DNA from: Bdellovibrionales bacterium
GTDB taxonomy: Bacteria; Bdellovibrionota; UBA1018
Assembly: GCA_016786465.1 (NCBI GenBank)
Contig: JAEUWC010000002.1
Span: 62,001 to 126,000 of the forward strand
DNA length: 64,000 nucleotides
Direction: 5' to 3'
Within the stretch, counting starts at the first letter, position 1. Every line of letters starts with the position of its first letter. The notes below the pieces were generated by a model. The model did no database searches. It had not been told where the DNA came from and saw only the letters and a list, made by a program, of their open reading frames with translations. Shown one piece after another: positions 36,976 to 51,544 of the stretch. A program made the translations under genes and the position numbers.

Positions 36976-39348
36976 TTATTTGTTCGCGCCTCGGCTTCCC
37001 GGATAGACGGGCCTTAGCTGATTCTTCGTTTCCGGGCTTGATTGAACCACTTTCGGGTTTTCTCCAATAGCAGCCTTGTATTTGAGTTCCGCCTTTTTTA
37101 CGGCACCCCGAAATTCCAAGGCGATCGTTTCTAGTTTTTTCATATCGACGTTGTACCGGCTAAGTTCGTTTCGCAATTTTTCAGAAAGCCGAGCCAGTTC
37201 TTGTCCTAGCAATTGTTGATGTTCTGCACGCTGCTTGAGGATGCCATGAAGTGTGGTCTGAAGTTCGGCGGCAGCCTGGTGGATCGACCAGACGTCGCTG
37301 CCGTCAGCTTTCTCGTTGGCTAAAAGTGTCTGGTATTCTTTAACTTTTGAAACCAAAAGGGGAGAAACCAAGGCAACGTGCAGGTCGGCCGCGTCATTGT
37401 TTGAGTCATTCCATTTGGTTCTTTTGGTGATTTGCAGGTATTCCCGTCCTTGGCGTGTAGTTACGATCTTTAGATTCAGACTTTCCAAAAGATTTTTGAG
37501 TTCGGTTAACGACATTTCTTCTGGGATGAAGGTTCTATACACGTACCAACTTCGAATACGCCGGTTCACCTGTGTACCCAAAGCAGCAAGCAAGCGGGCT
37601 TTCCATCTTAAATTTTCAAACGCCTTTGCTTCGGCCGCCTTGTTTCTTTCGTTCACAGCTTTTCGGAACTGAGTCATTAAAATGGCGGCATCCAAAGTGT
37701 GCGTGCTGAGCTCTTCTAAATGCATGTACGTCGTATACGCAGCATCATTCTCACTATGAATCTTGGTGCTGCTATTGATCCAGTCATACAGAATGGACTC
37801 GCCGTCGAGACCTTCATTTAAAAGTCGGTCGTAATAGACGTGTCGGATTTCATGCAATAAAGTCGAATCGGCCGCAATTCTTTGAATGCTTTCGGTCGAC
37901 GTATACATTCGCTGGTTCGTTCGGTCATGCAAGCCTAGGAATTTCTTAGTCTCCAATTCAATTGGATCCCACACCATTTTCGTTTGATATCGGTACATCA
38001 GACGTTCTGCGATTTTGTTCAATCGGCATCCGAATGCGTCGGGCGAAATGATAACCATCGAAGGGATTTCGGGGTGAATTTCCGCCTTGCATCCGTGCGA
38101 TCGAAGAAATGCCAGCGAAAGCTTTCCGCCTACTTTCCAGTTGGTCATTTCAAGTAGGGTTTCCTGGATCATTTTCCAAATCAGGTTCTCGTCAAGTGGG
38201 TAAGAAGTCAGCATCTTCTGATTGAGGTGAATAGAAATCTGATTGTTGCTGCGGTTGAAAAGTGTGTAAGGCTTTGCGGAAGACGTTCCGTAAGCAGGGT
38301 CGAAGTAAAAATGAACGGGTATACCCATTTGGTTCAATTCGGCCAAAAAGCGGCTTAGGTACCCGTTGAATCCCGGCTTGTCGTTCTGCTTGGGATTGAT
38401 TTTGTAGACTGGGTTTTTCGCAAACTTCAAATCCATGCTTTGGGTGAATTCAATGCCGTTTTCTTTGAAAAAACCTTCAATCACCGGTCCGAATTGCGAA
38501 AAGTCGTTTCTAGCCTTTGCCTTTTCGTATTCACGGGTGAAACCTAAGCGTCCGGTAGAAGGCGCAACCTCGGGGTAAAAGTCTTTAAGGTCTTGCATGG
38601 TTTCAGGGGAAATCGTTCCGTTCACAAGTTCTTCGTAAGAAAGAACGATGACTTTTTTTTCTGGATCCAATTTTGCCCCTTGTCCTTCACGGGTTTGGAG
38701 GTCCATGCAGACGTCGTAATTGAATATTTTTCTGATTCGGGAAGCGAAGCGGTTCAGCGAAGAACTGCCTTCGACATCCAAGCAAGCCAAGCCGTCTTCG
38801 GTCTTTTGGGTTTTGATTCCCATGACGTCGATGTAGGTGCTTAGGTCATTTCGATACAGAAGAAATTCTTTGATCGACGAAATCAAAGATTGGCGGGACG
38901 GCTCGCCCGGTTCTGCCAGGCTTCGTATGGGAAGCAGCGCCAAGTTTCCAGTTTCCGTAACACCGCCTCCGGTGAATGCTGAAAACGCGATTTGGATTTT
39001 CGACCCTGAAAGAATCTTTCTTGCCACTTGATTTAGGTCTGCATCCCCCGCGCTGTCGAGCACCAGAACTGGGAACTTCATGTTATTGACGGTGACTTCT
39101 TGGGTGAAAGTTTGAATTCCCTTCAAGTCGGCGATCTTCTTGGCTAGGTTCTGAAGGGCAAGGGGTTCTTCCAAACGATCCAATTTTTGGCGGGCTTCTT
39201 CTAGGGTTTGAATTTTTTTGATGGTTGATTCTTGACCGTATCCCATCAGCCGTTTCAGCCGCATTGAACAGTCCCAAGCAAAGTCTGCGTAGGTGAACCT
39301 AGAAGCAAGGAAAGCAAGAATGATGACTAGACGGATCGCCACAGTCAC
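36976..39348 (-). CDS. Large exported protein with HExxH zinc-peptidase-like site
   Basis: A 790-residue protein with a signal peptide (VAIRLVIILAFLASRFTYA). HEIRH stands at residues 499-503 in STLLHEIRHVYYDRLL, and about 40 residues later comes MHLEELSTHTLDA, which could supply the third zinc ligand, as in gluzincins. The last about 200 residues contain long helices. The N-terminal half has mixed strands (FPVLVLDSAGDADL, KVIVLSYEELV). No named family fits with certainty. Its stop is directly adjacent to the stop of the convergent Ig-repeat gene. It resembles the HEAHH protein at 25982-28183 in being a large exported protein with a late HExxH site. Confidence 0.7.
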   Translation of the reverse strand: MTVAIRLVIILAFLASRFTYADFAWDCSMRLKRLMGYGQESTIKKIQTLEEARQKLDRLEEPLALQNLAKKIADLKGIQTFTQEVTVNNMKFPVLVLDSAGDADLNQVARKILSGSKIQIAFSAFTGGGVTETGNLALLPIRSLAEPGEPSRQSLISSIKEFLLYRNDLSTYIDVMGIKTQKTEDGLACLDVEGSSSLNRFASRIRKIFNYDVCMDLQTREGQGAKLDPEKKVIVLSYEELVNGTISPETMQDLKDFYPEVAPSTGRLGFTREYEKAKARNDFSQFGPVIEGFFKENGIEFTQSMDLKFAKNPVYKINPKQNDKPGFNGYLSRFLAELNQMGIPVHFYFDPAYGTSSAKPYTLFNRSNNQISIHLNQKMLTSYPLDENLIWKMIQETLLEMTNWKVGGKLSLAFLRSHGCKAEIHPEIPSMVIISPDAFGCRLNKIAERLMYRYQTKMVWDPIELETKKFLGLHDRTNQRMYTSTESIQRIAADSTLLHEIRHVYYDRLLNEGLDGESILYDWINSSTKIHSENDAAYTTYMHLEELSTHTLDAAILMTQFRKAVNERNKAAEAKAFENLRWKARLLAALGTQVNRRIRSWYVYRTFIPEEMSLTELKNLLESLNLKIVTTRQGREYLQITKRTKWNDSNNDAADLHVALVSPLLVSKVKEYQTLLANEKADGSDVWSIHQAAAELQTTLHGILKQRAEHQQLLGQELARLSEKLRNELSRYNVDMKKLETIALEFRGAVKKAELKYKAAIGENPKVVQSSPETKNQLRPVYPGSRGANK

Positions 39349-39396: not shown

Positions 39397-39948
39397 ATGA
39401 ATCCCTTTTTTGATGTCTTTACGCATATTGTCAATCATGGTGGTAAGCCATTGGGCGAAACAGATCGCCTTCGGAAAGGTCTGATTTGGGCCTATTCCTG
39501 GGCTGTGCCATCGCCTGAAGCAATCGCACTTATAAAAAGCTCAGTGCCCAGGGATTCGGTGATCGTCGAAATCGGTGCTGGCACAGGTTACTGGGCTTGG
39601 TTGCTCAACCAAGCTGGATTCAACGTTCAGCCCTATGACCAAGAACCCCAACAGCCGCCGCAGTGGATGCCGATTTTCAAGGGGGGCCCCGAAGTTTTGG
39701 CGCGGTCGCCGGATGCGACCCTTTTTCTTTGCTGGCCACCTTTGGAAGGCACGATGGCGGAAGACGCGATCAACCACCACCAGGGCAAGTTTCTGGTTTA
39801 TGTGGGCGAGGGTCCTGGGGGACGAACAGGAAGCGATCGCTTTCACGCACTTTTGGATTCAAAGTACGAAAAGATTCAAAAGCTCGAACTGCCGCGATGG
39901 CCCGGTTTCAAGGATTCGCTTTTTATTTACCAGGCACGGGCTTTTTAA
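39397..39948 (+). CDS. Class I SAM-dependent methyltransferase-like protein
   Basis: About 183 residues. VIVEIGAGTGYWAWLLNQAG is the glycine-rich AdoMet-binding motif I, and VQPYDQEPQ puts an acidic residue at the end of the second strand. LFLCWPPLEG is in the motif IV position (usually D/N-PP-Y/W). The rest of the fold is short, so the substrate-binding part is minimal. I chose the ATG at 39397; a TTG at 39388 has a closer GGAAA. The gene lies alone between two large leftward genes and overlaps the end of the downstream one by 26 bases. The substrate is unknown. Confidence 0.7.
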   Translation: MNPFFDVFTHIVNHGGKPLGETDRLRKGLIWAYSWAVPSPEAIALIKSSVPRDSVIVEIGAGTGYWAWLLNQAGFNVQPYDQEPQQPPQWMPIFKGGPEVLARSPDATLFLCWPPLEGTMAEDAINHHQGKFLVYVGEGPGGRTGSDRFHALLDSKYEKIQKLELPRWPGFKDSLFIYQARAF

Positions 39949-42900
39949 GGATGTCTTCGCGAATCCAGCTTCGATTGGTTTCGCCGTATCGCATCGATGC
40001 GCGCTTAAACAAACTTTCGCGCCGATCAATCAGTTGAAAGTAATCGATGGCTTTGCCATTGGCGTCTTGGGCTTGGCCCGGATGTCCGCCCTTGCCGTGA
40101 ACTGAAGCAATGGCCCGGTCAACACCCGACGCTCCTTTACCTTTGGATCCCGTCGTGCCGCTGGCGTCCGTATCAGAACCTGATTCGGATCCCGGAAAAT
40201 TCAAGGCTTCGAAAGTCTGACCTTGGCCCACTTGTGGGCCGCCGGATTGGCCAAAACTTCCCGACGAACGTCCCGAACCGCTTGAAGAACTGGAAGTCGC
40301 GGCAGAAACAGATTTGTAATTTCCACCTGATACAACCGACGCGAGCCTTGTTTCATCCGCGCGGTCATGATCCTGAGATGGGTCAGGGGTACCGTTCGCG
40401 GCATTCCAAAGCTGAGCTTCGTTCATCGGGCTAGGGGCACCCATCACGGGATCCATAAAACCGACGCTTCCTTCCATGTCCATAGCCATGTCATTCAAAG
40501 CGTTTGGGTCTTGGTAAGCCAAAGGATCAACGTCCACCCATTGCATCGGGACTAGTCGCGTCGATCCCACCGAAGCCCCCCCGTTTCTTAGGCCATTAAA
40601 TTCCGTGATCGCACGTTCGGCCATGCCTGAAAATTCTCCGCCCGATTCATCAGGAAAAATCAGGCCATGCTTAACCCGGTCCGGAGGACCAGCACGGTTG
40701 GCAATGGCGGTCATATCCTTGTGCTTCATGGCTTCAGAATCGCCTTTCAAAAAGGTCATCTGAATTTCTGGATTCGTGTCGTCCATGATCTGGCCAGGAA
40801 CGCCCAAGGAATCTTCAGGTGCGTTACATTCGCAAGAAGATTGCGCGATCTTGACGTTTTCATCCTTGGCGCGACGGTCGGCCCGGCTGCTTCGCCCCTT
40901 TTTGCCTGTGAAGGTTTGTTCGGTTTGGCAGCGATACAAGGCTTCTGTGTACGCCAATCCGGTTTTGCTTCGAAGATCTTCGTTCCGCTGCATTTGCGAA
41001 TTCAGCACATCGGTTAAGGACGAACCGTACTGAGTGCCAATGGTCTGCATCTGCGTCTGCGCGTTCTGCATTTCGATGTTGTAATTTTGGGTCGCGTCGA
41101 TCATCGGCTTGCACGCTTCGATGCAAGTGCCCGCCAATTCACTTCTTCGATTCATGACTGCAAAAGGCGACTTCAGCACGGGTTCTTTCACCTGTTCGTT
41201 TGCGTTGCCTTCTTCTAAAAGTTCGTCCCAGGTTTTCACGTCTTCGGCTTTGTAGCCCGAGCAGGTCAAGTTCGGGACGTCATCGACTTTACAACTGGAT
41301 GCGATCAAAGAAACAGCGACGAAAACCCCGGCAGCTGCAGCCCTTTTTTCGCGTCTGCGGCCGCGTTTTTTTGCAAATGCCCCGAAGCCAGAAAGGCTAA
41401 GCCCCAACCAGGCCAGGGATTCTTCGTTTGGCGCTTGCTTGGGTTTTTGCGGAACGTTCCAGGCCGTATTCCCAGCAGCACGGGTCATGCGTTCGCGGAT
41501 CTTCAACGCGACGGTTTGCCAAGTGCAGTAAGTGTACTGGGCCATCATCTTCATTTCGATTTCCGTCTGCATGGATGCCAGAACGCAGGCTTGATGCTGT
41601 GGGCCCTTTAGGCCTTTTTTGGGGGTCAAGGAAGTTAGCGATGCGATGTATTTCAGTTCGGGGTCTTCGGCATCCAGTTCGTCACCACATTCGATGGCCT
41701 TGCTGCCTTTGGGCTGCCTGGCTTTCAAATCATCCAGGCCTTCTTTGATCTTTTTTCGGAAGGCCAGAATCTTGGCTTCCGTTTCGGCGCAGGAATCGAT
41801 GACGCCGTACGAAGCGGTTTTGCGAACGCGTCCTTTTTCTAGAATGTTTTTCTTTATCCCCGCCATCAACTGCATCATCAGATCAACTTCGGTTCCGCGC
41901 ACGGTCGGCGCGCCCGAATAATTTTCATCGGTCTGAATTCCTTTGCAGTGGTGATTCACGACTTCGATTCCGCCCGGAACCGTACGGATGGTTTCATCCA
42001 CGGGATTGCCATCTTTTCCCTTAAACCATCCCATGGTTTTGTTCATGAAGTTTGCGGTCCCTTGGGTGGGACCCGATCCGGTTTGCTGTTCCGGAGCACA
42101 CAAGCTCCAAGCTGGGGTTTGTCCAAAGTACAAAACTTTGGTTTTAGTCGTGTTCAAAAGATCCGGCAAGAAACCCTGATATAGGCCGTAAATATGGACA
42201 CCTTGGTGAACCACGGGGCTAACGCCCGGGGCGGGGGCAGGCGGGGGAAAGTCGATTTCCAATTGCTTGCTTCCCGCAATGAAAATTCGAACCATTCTTT
42301 CGAAAGTTTCTGCCAACCAGATTCGAATCGCCTGCGATTCGTTCTTGGCGTCGATTCGCTTTCCGCTGGCATCGCGAAGGAATCGAGCAGCGATGAAACC
42401 CTGGTCGGCATCGGGGTAAGGAATGATCTGGCTAGGCTGTGGATCGGGATCCAAGTTCATTCCCGCCAGCGCAGACTTCACCTTCGTGATTTGCTTTTCC
42501 AAAGTCGCAATCGACTTGTCTAAGGCGTCCATTTCGTCGTTTCCGTCCTGGCAGTTTCCGGGGGATGGAAAACGGGTCGGAAGTTCTTCCTTGTATCGGT
42601 CCATGTAATTTCCAAAGACCTGATTCCAAGGCAGTTCCTGATTGGGCTGCGTGGCGCGCGCCAATTCGATGTTTGCAGCCGCCTTTTTGCGAGTCTCGAT
42701 GGAGTCATACACATAATAGACGTTTGCAGGCTGGGTCTTGTCCGGAAGGGGTGATGGTCCAGAAGCGGGGCTCGTGATGGACCCTCGGAAGTAACGGGGG
42801 TCGCCAACAACCGTGTCGAAGACAGGCCATGAAACGTAATCGGTTCCATTCCAACGGTAGGTGGGTTTGTTGGCGTCGGCCCCGACTCGGCATCCGGTTG

Positions 42901-43075
42901 CTGTGGGGTTTGGGCAGCACCCCGCCGTTGGCGCAGTTGAAGGCACTGAAACAGCGTAAGTGGGCATGGAAGGGCTGGCCCAAGGAACTGGGCTTTGCGC
43001 CTGTAGGACAGGCATGCTTAAGGACGCGACCAGGGTCGCTCCAAAAGACCCCAAAAATGCTTTGGTCCTAGCCAA
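39923..43075 (-). CDS. 1050-residue exported protein with internal membrane hairpin and lipobox-like Cys
   Basis: It starts at a TTG with a G-rich run upstream and a signal peptide ending near LQAQ. The first about 545 residues are hydrophilic, with scattered cysteines (AGCCPNPTATGC near the N-terminus). Around residues 549-594 two hydrophobic segments flank KKRGRRREKR, giving an out-in-out hairpin. The second ends in SLIASSC with Cys at residue 595, which looks like a lipobox. The remaining about 455 residues are Cys-bearing and then Ser/Gly-rich near 950-990. This resembles two exported proteins joined in one frame, the second a lipoprotein. No enzymatic motif is visible. Confidence 0.65.
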   Translation of the reverse strand: MARTKAFLGSFGATLVASLSMPVLQAQSPVPWASPSMPTYAVSVPSTAPTAGCCPNPTATGCRVGADANKPTYRWNGTDYVSWPVFDTVVGDPRYFRGSITSPASGPSPLPDKTQPANVYYVYDSIETRKKAAANIELARATQPNQELPWNQVFGNYMDRYKEELPTRFPSPGNCQDGNDEMDALDKSIATLEKQITKVKSALAGMNLDPDPQPSQIIPYPDADQGFIAARFLRDASGKRIDAKNESQAIRIWLAETFERMVRIFIAGSKQLEIDFPPPAPAPGVSPVVHQGVHIYGLYQGFLPDLLNTTKTKVLYFGQTPAWSLCAPEQQTGSGPTQGTANFMNKTMGWFKGKDGNPVDETIRTVPGGIEVVNHHCKGIQTDENYSGAPTVRGTEVDLMMQLMAGIKKNILEKGRVRKTASYGVIDSCAETEAKILAFRKKIKEGLDDLKARQPKGSKAIECGDELDAEDPELKYIASLTSLTPKKGLKGPQHQACVLASMQTEIEMKMMAQYTYCTWQTVALKIRERMTRAAGNTAWNVPQKPKQAPNEESLAWLGLSLSGFGAFAKKRGRRREKRAAAAGVFVAVSLIASSCKVDDVPNLTCSGYKAEDVKTWDELLEEGNANEQVKEPVLKSPFAVMNRRSELAGTCIEACKPMIDATQNYNIEMQNAQTQMQTIGTQYGSSLTDVLNSQMQRNEDLRSKTGLAYTEALYRCQTEQTFTGKKGRSSRADRRAKDENVKIAQSSCECNAPEDSLGVPGQIMDDTNPEIQMTFLKGDSEAMKHKDMTAIANRAGPPDRVKHGLIFPDESGGEFSGMAERAITEFNGLRNGGASVGSTRLVPMQWVDVDPLAYQDPNALNDMAMDMEGSVGFMDPVMGAPSPMNEAQLWNAANGTPDPSQDHDRADETRLASVVSGGNYKSVSAATSSSSSGSGRSSGSFGQSGGPQVGQGQTFEALNFPGSESGSDTDASGTTGSKGKGASGVDRAIASVHGKGGHPGQAQDANGKAIDYFQLIDRRESLFKRASMRYGETNRSWIREDILKKPVPGK

Positions 43076-43173
43076 GGAAAAATCCCCCCCCTAACCTTAT
43101 AGTGTACTGATACAATCGATCATGGACAAGATTGAAGTCGGGGCCCAAATGGGTGGAATTTCGTTATAAATAT

Positions 43174-43812
43174 ATGAAATTATTGATTTTTATCTATCTT
43201 ATTTCGGGGGCCCTTAGGGACCACGTTTGGGCGGCGGAATCGCCCAAAAATATGATGGAAAGGCAGGGAAATGAACGACGCCTTTTGATCGAATCCCAGA
43301 ATAGCCGGATTGATGAAAAGAAGGCCCAGTTTCAAAAAGCTTTCGAAAATTACCTGGATCGCAAGGTGAAGACCTACCCTGAAAAGGAAGCCAAAGACCT
43401 TCGCGCGGCCCAGGCCCAAGCAAGGGCTGAAGAAAGTCGCGCGCAACGCCGATTTGACCAGGAACAAACCCGGCTAAACCCCGAACAGCTTACCGACATC
43501 ATTCAAACCTTTCATCGGGAAAGAAATCCTGAAGGCTTTTCCAAGCGCCGTGCTTTCAATCCCGCAAAAGACGTGAACCCTAGTCGCAATGAAATTTCAC
43601 AAGACGATTCCGCCCAAGGCGGTAAGCAATCCGGGCCCGCGGGGGGCCCCGCAGCGACTGGGCATTACAGCGCGGAACTTTCCGAAGGCAAAGCCCCCGG
43701 GCAGGGTGTTGACCCGAATCAGGGCTTAGATCCCAACCACTTTGAAAAAGAGCTGAAATTCCCTGAAAAAAAGTACGATCTTTGGAAGGGGATCAAGCGT
43801 CAAAAGCAGTAA
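43174..43812 (+). CDS. Small exported coiled-coil protein
   Basis: From the ATG at 43174, a signal peptide (MKLLIFIYLISGAL, cleaved near WAA) leads into about 190 residues. The first half is a strongly charged helix with heptad character (RIDEKKAQFQKAFENYL, AAQAQARAEESRAQRRF). The second half is Pro/Gly/Asn-rich and probably disordered, with DPNQGLDPNHF near the end. A TTG at 43132 would add 14 residues in front of the hydrophobic segment. TATAAA at 43165-43170 sits nine bases before the ATG. The gene diverges from the 1050-residue exported protein, and a shared role at the envelope is only suggested by position. Confidence 0.6.
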   Translation: MKLLIFIYLISGALRDHVWAAESPKNMMERQGNERRLLIESQNSRIDEKKAQFQKAFENYLDRKVKTYPEKEAKDLRAAQAQARAEESRAQRRFDQEQTRLNPEQLTDIIQTFHRERNPEGFSKRRAFNPAKDVNPSRNEISQDDSAQGGKQSGPAGGPAATGHYSAELSEGKAPGQGVDPNQGLDPNHFEKELKFPEKKYDLWKGIKRQKQ

Positions 43813-49483: not shown

Positions 49484-51544
49484 TCAATGCTGTAATTTTC
49501 GGACTTCGGGATCGCCACCCAAGTTCGTGTTCGTCGGAGTCGCTTTTCCGTCCACCGAAGTTTGCGAAATGGAATTGAAGGAAACGTACTTCACGCTGTA
49601 TCCCACCCGTCCTTGTGCGGCGAAGTCCTTGTCTTTGACCCCGTTCCAGGACGTGCGGATTTTATCCTTGTGCTTGATCGGGTGAAGGACCAAGTCGGGC
49701 GCGGGAAGCTTGTCGGCGACCGAAAACTTGGCGCCAGGGGCAAAAGTCCCACCATTTTCTGGCATCCGCCAAACCGGCGATGAAATCCGCGCGACGTGTA
49801 GCGTTTCGCCATTCTCTCCCTGACCGGCTTTTAGATCCTGAAGGTATTCGGTCAGCTGTTTTTTGATGGTGTCTTTGAAGGTGGCCAGATCAACCGCCGC
49901 AACACCCGTTGCCGTTCCTAATTGGTTCTTCAAGTTGTCGACGACGGGTTCGAACTGTTTTGCGACTTCGCCTAGATCGGTGACGCCCGGCGGCACCACG
50001 GGCGCCCAGAACGCTGCGTAGCCGTCTGGATCGAAGAACTTTTCAAAATAGGGGATGGATTCATCTTCTAAGTCCATGGGGATGTTGTACTTGGCCGATT
50101 CCCAAGGATTCGCGGCGGCAGCCGAATGTTCCCCGTTTTGAATCGTATTCAAATCAATCGAACCCACATTGGACATCGCCGTATTGTTTCCTGCCATCGC
50201 CTGGAAGAACGCAAAAAGCGGCGCTTCCTGTAGCCAGCCCTGATCCGTGGTTTCGGTGGCTAGCATTGGGATATTCGGGATCTTTTTCGCGCAATCTGCC
50301 GAAGCCCCGCAGTGAATCGGACTAAATGCCCCCTGTTTCAAGAAGTCTTTCTGGGTCAGTCCCGGTGGACCGATGCGACTGCCGAAAGGACGTGCCGCTG
50401 AATAAGCCGTCAGTTTCAAATCGCCCCAGGGCGAAAAAATGATCTTGGCTTTTGCTTCTAATTTCACCGCGTAATAGGTCAGCACTGCCGGATCCTTTTC
50501 GACCCCAACGGTGACTTTGGTGATTTTGAACGGAAAGGGTTCGGCAATACAGTTTTGGCGGGCATTGGAATTGGACTGTGACTGCAATTGCAGCGAATAA
50601 ACGTCGAATTCATCCAGCACGATGTCGTTCAGTTTAAGTAGATTACCTTCCGTCCCTGATGATGGAAGAAGTTCGGTCAACACAATCGATTCCGTGTTGT
50701 TGTAGCTATGGCTTCCCAAAGTTCTGAATGCCGAAAGGTAGGCTTGAAGCGCACGTTCGTAATTTGGAACTTTATTGGGATCGTTCACCCAGTTTTGCGC
50801 TTCTGACTTGTGAATGACTTGCGGCGCCAGATTGACGAAGTCATTCAAAATCTTGATGCGCTGACGGGTCATCGCTAAGCGGGGCAAAAGGCCTAAGCCC
50901 GACGCGACCTGCTTGATGGCTTGATAGGTACTGGCGACGGCGGCTCCCCCTTGGGAACTTTTTAAGTCGTGATCAAAATTGAAAAGCCAAAGAAGAATGA
51001 TCTGCTGGTTCAATTTGGAAGTCGCATCGCAGCCGCCTTTGATCAGTTGCTGGATGTTTTCCATCTGGCCCATCAAAGTTCCGTTCACCAAATTCGCTTT
51101 TTCCATGATCTTCAAGGAATTGGTGATGGGATTGGGCATGTCTTGAAGCTGGCAAGCGTTGCTACCGCTGTTAAAGGCCAAGCAGACCACTGGAACTTTG
51201 TAAGGCGGAGAGTTCGAAGTTGCTCGAAATTCATAGAAACCCGAACCGCCACTGTTTCTAGGGTAGGGTTGTTCGGCCAAATTCCCTAAAACGTAGTAGC
51301 GGTAAAGGAATCGCTTCCAGTGGCGCCGCATTTCGTAATTCAAAAAGCTGATTTGGGTCAGTTGACGGGCCTGAACCGATGCCCCGGCGTAAGCGGCCAT
51401 ATCGGCGGCGTTTTGCAGATTGATTTTGGCGTGGACCAGCATGCCCACGTTGATCACGAAGGCGAAAAACAGAAGAAAAGTCGTCATCATCATCCCGATC
51501 AGGATGGTCGCCTGGCCTTTTTCGTTCAGGCTTTTGAAGCGCAT
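49484..51544 (-). CDS. Tad-type (TadE/G-like) pilus-assembly-associated exported protein
   Basis: The 686-residue protein begins with GQATILIGMMMTTFLLFFAFVI broken by a Lys/Gln run, a typical TadE/TadG N-terminus (NEKGQA...) with one membrane helix, followed by VGMLVHAKINLQNAADMAAYAGAS, the pattern of the Flp-pilus-assembly TadG-like N-terminal domain. The rest is a long periplasmic part with no known enzyme motif, including a Cys pair near GASADCAKK. TadG-like proteins are often anchored pilus-assembly or minor-pilin factors. No other tad genes are nearby, so a complete Flp system is not shown here. Confidence 0.78.
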   Translation of the reverse strand: MRFKSLNEKGQATILIGMMMTTFLLFFAFVINVGMLVHAKINLQNAADMAAYAGASVQARQLTQISFLNYEMRRHWKRFLYRYYVLGNLAEQPYPRNSGGSGFYEFRATSNSPPYKVPVVCLAFNSGSNACQLQDMPNPITNSLKIMEKANLVNGTLMGQMENIQQLIKGGCDATSKLNQQIILLWLFNFDHDLKSSQGGAAVASTYQAIKQVASGLGLLPRLAMTRQRIKILNDFVNLAPQVIHKSEAQNWVNDPNKVPNYERALQAYLSAFRTLGSHSYNNTESIVLTELLPSSGTEGNLLKLNDIVLDEFDVYSLQLQSQSNSNARQNCIAEPFPFKITKVTVGVEKDPAVLTYYAVKLEAKAKIIFSPWGDLKLTAYSAARPFGSRIGPPGLTQKDFLKQGAFSPIHCGASADCAKKIPNIPMLATETTDQGWLQEAPLFAFFQAMAGNNTAMSNVGSIDLNTIQNGEHSAAAANPWESAKYNIPMDLEDESIPYFEKFFDPDGYAAFWAPVVPPGVTDLGEVAKQFEPVVDNLKNQLGTATGVAAVDLATFKDTIKKQLTEYLQDLKAGQGENGETLHVARISSPVWRMPENGGTFAPGAKFSVADKLPAPDLVLHPIKHKDKIRTSWNGVKDKDFAAQGRVGYSVKYVSFNSISQTSVDGKATPTNTNLGGDPEVRKLQH

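Follow-up and report, generated by a model that had tools for sequence, protein, structure and literature searches.

On the minus strand of the window, the stretch of 64,000 nucleotides analysed here, a continuous open reading frame of 1050 codons plus a stop codon extends over positions 39923-43075. It opens with a TTG at 43075, preceded by a G-rich Shine-Dalgarno-like run (43084-43091), and closes with the stop codon at 39923-39925. On the basis of this frame, its translation, and relatives that occur in both fused and split form, we describe it as a fused gene, AB. The assembly contains no N, and the GC3 and codon position composition are alike on either side of the junction between the two parts. 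Divergent from AB lies gene D (43132-43812, plus strand), which encodes a small exported protein and was recognized with a three-member profile as a conserved neighbour of A and B.

The hydropathy plot of the AB protein has only three peaks, namely an N-terminal signal peptide and two internal segments, H1 and H2. The signal peptide (residues 1-26, MARTKAFLGSFGATLVASLSMPVLQA; 42998-43075, minus strand, as are all AB features below) is of the SPase I type, with a hydropathy peak at residues 4-26 and a cleavage site placed by eye. It is followed by the exported, Cys-containing A part (residues 27-553; 41417-42997) and by H1 (residues 554-568, LAWLGLSLSGFGAFA; 41372-41416), a weak segment with a Kyte-Doolittle mean of 1.5 over 15 residues, which we propose to be a stop-transfer segment from its hydropathy and from comparison with fused and split relatives. 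The basic loop KKRGRRREKR (residues 569-578; 41342-41371) comes next and, from its sequence and the same comparison, is the proposed cytoplasmic n-region of an internal signal. H2 (residues 579-594, AAAAGVFVAVSLIASS; 41294-41341) peaks at 2.2 and, by hydropathy and likeness to relatives, corresponds to the h-region of an internal lipoprotein signal peptide. Directly after it stands Cys595 (41291-41293), the proposed site of lipidation and SPase II cleavage, in a lipobox IASSC that would be cut before the Cys and has Ala rather than Leu at -3. The B part (residues 595-1050; 39926-41293), the proposed mature lipoprotein, ends with a C-terminal tail conserved among relatives (IDYFQLIDRRESLFKRASMRY and following; 39950-40051). 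A preliminary description of this DNA had correctly recognized the two hydrophobic stretches around KKRGRRREKR and the Cys595 that ends the second, but had put the basic cluster at about residues 564-575.

The lipoprotein-type signal of AB is thus internal (residues 569-594 of 1050), whereas that of split relatives is N-terminal. Under a strict rule for such signals (an n-region with at least three Lys or Arg, an uncharged h-region and a lipobox Cys), an internal site was found in the window gene, with its KKRGRRREKR, H2 and Cys595, and in its relative from genome G010. Among 515 other open reading frames (>=250 aa) of the window and the loci of relatives, none has one, and therefore the window junction is beyond what chance would give.

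A run of seven A (41366-41372; minus strand GCAAAAAAACGC) lies exactly at the border of H1 and the loop and is phased for a -1 slip; a -1 slip there would give a tail of only 25 aa and a +1 slip one of 19 aa. A ten-A run is present inside the loop of the fused gene of G017 (L104). Two further minus-strand genes of the window may be mentioned. One, at 36976-39348, encodes an exported protein of 790 aa with an HExxH-like motif (LLHEIRHVYYD); it has no Pfam match, and only its residues from about 405 to 590 have relatives in the family. The other, at 49484-51544, encodes a TadE/G-like protein (PF13400) that accompanies panB-coaX-panC and A-B in G001 and G010.

Relatives of the two parts

Direct searches with the window protein against Pfam, NCBIfam, the PDB and 369 genomes of the phylum gave nothing convincing; two weak whole-protein matches, the better one to an aldolase-like open reading frame, were inspected and judged to be due to chance. 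Relatives in the same order, among metagenome-assembled genomes (MAGs) of Bdellovibrionota, were exposed by synteny with panC together with a profile of the C-terminal tail built from three sequences. Beside panC, G001 has two genes, one for an exported Cys-rich protein and then one for a lipoprotein, and G010 has a single open reading frame with the same kind of hairpin as the window protein. The tail is common to all three loci, and the order of gene D and the panC neighbourhood is the same in the window as in G001 and G010. The tail profile then brought up members from family f1 as well as from further families of the order, and some of these loci are present in public records of Bdellovibrionales/Oligoflexia MAGs.

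The two halves of the window protein are placed in this family with unequal firmness. The B tail has the consensus DYFxRxxxxxxLFKxVxxRY, and the window tail matches a profile built without it at E=6.9e-9. The N-terminal part scores 6.2 bits against an enlarged A profile, a value reached by none of 1000 shuffled sequences (best 3.7) and tied by the B protein of another genome. Whereas six fused N-terminal parts outside the training set match the profile of split A proteins (E=1.7e-46 to 1.8e-8), that of the window does not. Its assignment as an A homologue, weakly similar in sequence, is drawn mainly from synteny, together with its position and the neighbouring gene D, relatives of which stand beside A in about ten to a dozen loci, some with weak E values.

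An AlphaFold model of A from four sequences is mostly helical (mean pLDDT 59.5), and a Foldseek search with it found no match in the PDB at E<=0.001. For B, the NCBIfam entry invert_tail was hit by one member (E=0.007) and by no other, which we took as chance. Large exported proteins that otherwise differ (L173, L175, L176, L177, L178 and L182 in genomes of family f9, as well as L189 and L191) also have a tail matching S[LI]FK[IV][IV]xxRY, at the C-terminus or close to it. Since the motif recurs in such different proteins, a broader class of C-terminal signals or interaction motifs may exist in the phylum, with the B tail as one member.

Split and fused forms of the gene pair

In most genomes that have the family, A and B are adjacent genes with B directly downstream. 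This is the outcome that the preliminary description had asked for in suggesting a search for separate homologues of the two halves. Split A proteins have a signal peptide and are exported, Cys-rich and mostly about 330-590 aa long; split B proteins, of about 280-440 aa, have a Gly/Ser-rich middle and the conserved tail. Throughout most of family f1, B is a stand-alone lipoprotein with its own start, and in f5 it looks SPase I-exported. Six of 16 measured pairs have a 4-base overlap of the ATGA type between the A stop and the B start. In eight others B keeps the frame of A, from which a gap of 9-21 bases separates it in most cases, and pairs are often parted by a single in-frame stop.

A single AB frame is present in nine genomes, including that of the window. 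Each of these genes has a short hydrophobic segment, a basic stretch and the signal sequence of B, and then either a lipobox-type Cys (the window, G010, G003, G005, G036 and G044) or an SPase I-like site (G017, G030 and G042). The lipoboxes of G005 (LLPGC) and G036 (NATKGC) are poor. Homologues are therefore not uniformly continuous proteins lacking the lipobox Cys, the sequence finding that was to count against the internal-lipoprotein idea; split ones exist, and the junction of the continuous ones retains a site of signal-peptidase type.

Split A proteins have no C-terminal segment comparable to H1 and its loop. A hydrophobic 15-mer (mean >=1.3) was found in all of the first seven fused genes and in none of 31 split A ends (p=8e-8); a second rule gave 8 of 9 against 3 of 39 (p=4e-6), with G044 missing because its segment has only 11 residues. 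Both p-values are descriptive, as the cut-offs were set while viewing the same data and the genomes are related. H1 with its basic loop is a property of the fused genes. The preliminary description had read the junction as the C-terminal anchor of one protein joined to the signal peptide of a lipoprotein. The second half of that reading is supported, given that B is a separate lipoprotein in relatives, but H1 does not represent the anchor of a stand-alone A: in split A proteins no such anchor is present at the C-terminus.

The two states interleave on an rpoB tree with 25 genomes, of which seven are fused (G028, the short row of G009, G042 and G044 were left out). Seven changes of state, by fusion or fission, are needed, and at least four are forced by well-supported branches. 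One genus contains both the fused G030 and the split G021, each with an SPase I-like B signal.

Discussion

We consider it probable that AB is an in-frame fusion of the neighbouring genes A and B, whose precursor uses its hairpin and internal signal peptide to be cut by SPase II into an A protein tethered to the inner membrane and a free lipoprotein B. For a signal peptide to work, its basic end must lie in the cytoplasm. If B simply followed a translocating A, its signal would therefore come to lie on the wrong side, a fault that a stop-transfer segment followed by a basic loop corrects. In the pathway that we infer, the first signal peptide would send A across the inner membrane and H1 would halt translocation, leaving the loop in the cytoplasm. 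There, the loop would act as the n-region of the second signal peptide, H2, which would restart translocation. Lgt would then lipidate Cys595 and SPase II (LspA) would cut before it, so that A would stay in the inner membrane by its hairpin tail and B would be released as a lipoprotein. The genome of the window has two LspA genes (G000:C28:62207-62638 and G000:C9:18536-18964). A hairpin in fused genes, with no comparable end in split A proteins, is what processing into two products predicts. Against such processing count the Ala at -3 of the window lipobox, the poor lipoboxes of G005 and G036, the shortness and weak hydrophobicity of H1, and an N-terminal part barely recognizable as A.

The same anatomy could serve an uncut protein, in which AB would remain a single protein of the inner membrane, its two periplasmic domains connected and anchored by a two-helix hairpin, and Cys595 would be structural or a relic of the fusion. 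The out-in-out arrangement fits such an anchor under the positive-inside rule, and H1 and H2 are nearly equal in length. However, a plain anchor requires neither a Cys nor an SPase I-like site, and G017, G030 and G042, whose fused genes have no Cys there, carry an SPase I-like site at the same place; moreover, B is a separate protein in split relatives. We regard an uncut hairpin as unlikely, if still a serious alternative.

Much less room is left for the idea that B is made by internal initiation within the fused frame, with the long product minor or unused. Split A-B pairs are translationally coupled, and possible starts exist near the junctions: TTG557 within H1 of the window gene, and GTG552 in G010 and TTG433 in G003 near the loop (open-frame numbering). 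However, the next start in the window gene after TTG557 is TTG590, near the end of H2, with none in between, so that B could hardly be translated alone; in G017, none occurs between H1 and H2. A window B with a normal n-region needs the polyprotein or else a start inside H1, which is unlikely, and internal initiation leaves the added segment of H1 and basic residues unexplained. We consider this route very improbable. It is scarcely credible that the window fusion arose by misassembly or by a recent stop loss in a MAG and does not represent a functional form of the gene: the genome is in 30 contigs and A7 and A6 runs lie at the loop, but the fused frame recurs in eight other genomes with an H1-basic segment that simple stop loss would not create, and codon position composition stays similar across the junction.

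Among known systems, the closest in principle to the processing of AB by signal peptidase is FbcH of Bradyrhizobium japonicum, the cytochrome b/c1 polyprotein of a respiratory complex, whose internal signal sequence is cut by SPase I. In both cases, one bacterial gene encodes two proteins, the second behind an internal signal sequence, and AB likewise joins in frame, through such a signal, proteins that are separate in relatives. However, the AB proteins are unrelated, the site in the window gene is of the lipoprotein (SPase II) type, and the cleavage of AB is a prediction. With ordinary Sec/SPII lipoproteins, of which split B is the usual N-terminal form, AB shares the basic n-region, the hydrophobic h-region and the lipobox Cys, but its signal lies internally, preceded by a hydrophobic segment and another domain that is exported. 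Among viruses, parallels exist in polyproteins with internal signal peptides, such as the bunyavirus glycoprotein precursors, which are cut into separate proteins (PMC7926653). Several exported parts in one precursor are common to these and to AB, in which cutting is predicted, whereas the viral case concerns glycoproteins and the signal peptidase of the eukaryotic endoplasmic reticulum and is not known to involve a lipobox.

H1 and the basic cluster also resemble in outline the PEP-CTERM sorting signals recognized by exosortases, and the genome has one exosortase. This reading, prompted by the sorting-signal look of H1, was rejected for want of a PEP motif; a search of the genome and a Pfam scan gave no PEP-CTERM (PF07589) match at the AB locus. 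The exosortase is fused to a second domain, giving 530 aa, and the small protein adjacent to it, the only PEP-CTERM match over the cut-off in the genome, makes this a one-substrate arrangement (G000:C3:84619-85395; L069).

A signal peptide is normally regarded as an N-terminal element, and neither Lgt nor LspA is, to our knowledge, usually counted among the enzymes that process polyproteins. In the openly licensed literature, we came across no bacterial polyprotein with an internal lipoprotein signal. The existence of split and fused relatives renders the polyprotein reading of AB directly testable. If it is true, AB shows that genetically fused exported proteins can remain separate, the fused genes show which natural sequence rules an internal lipoprotein signal follows, and lipoproteins of this kind escape genome annotation. 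For the order as a whole, we lean slightly towards the view that in its bacteria a two-gene envelope operon has repeatedly taken the form of one polyprotein gene, each time with a short stop-transfer segment and a basic loop that keep the internal lipoprotein (or SPase I) signal working. This would amount to a recurrent bacterial polyprotein strategy in which maturation is left to signal peptidases, SPase II included.
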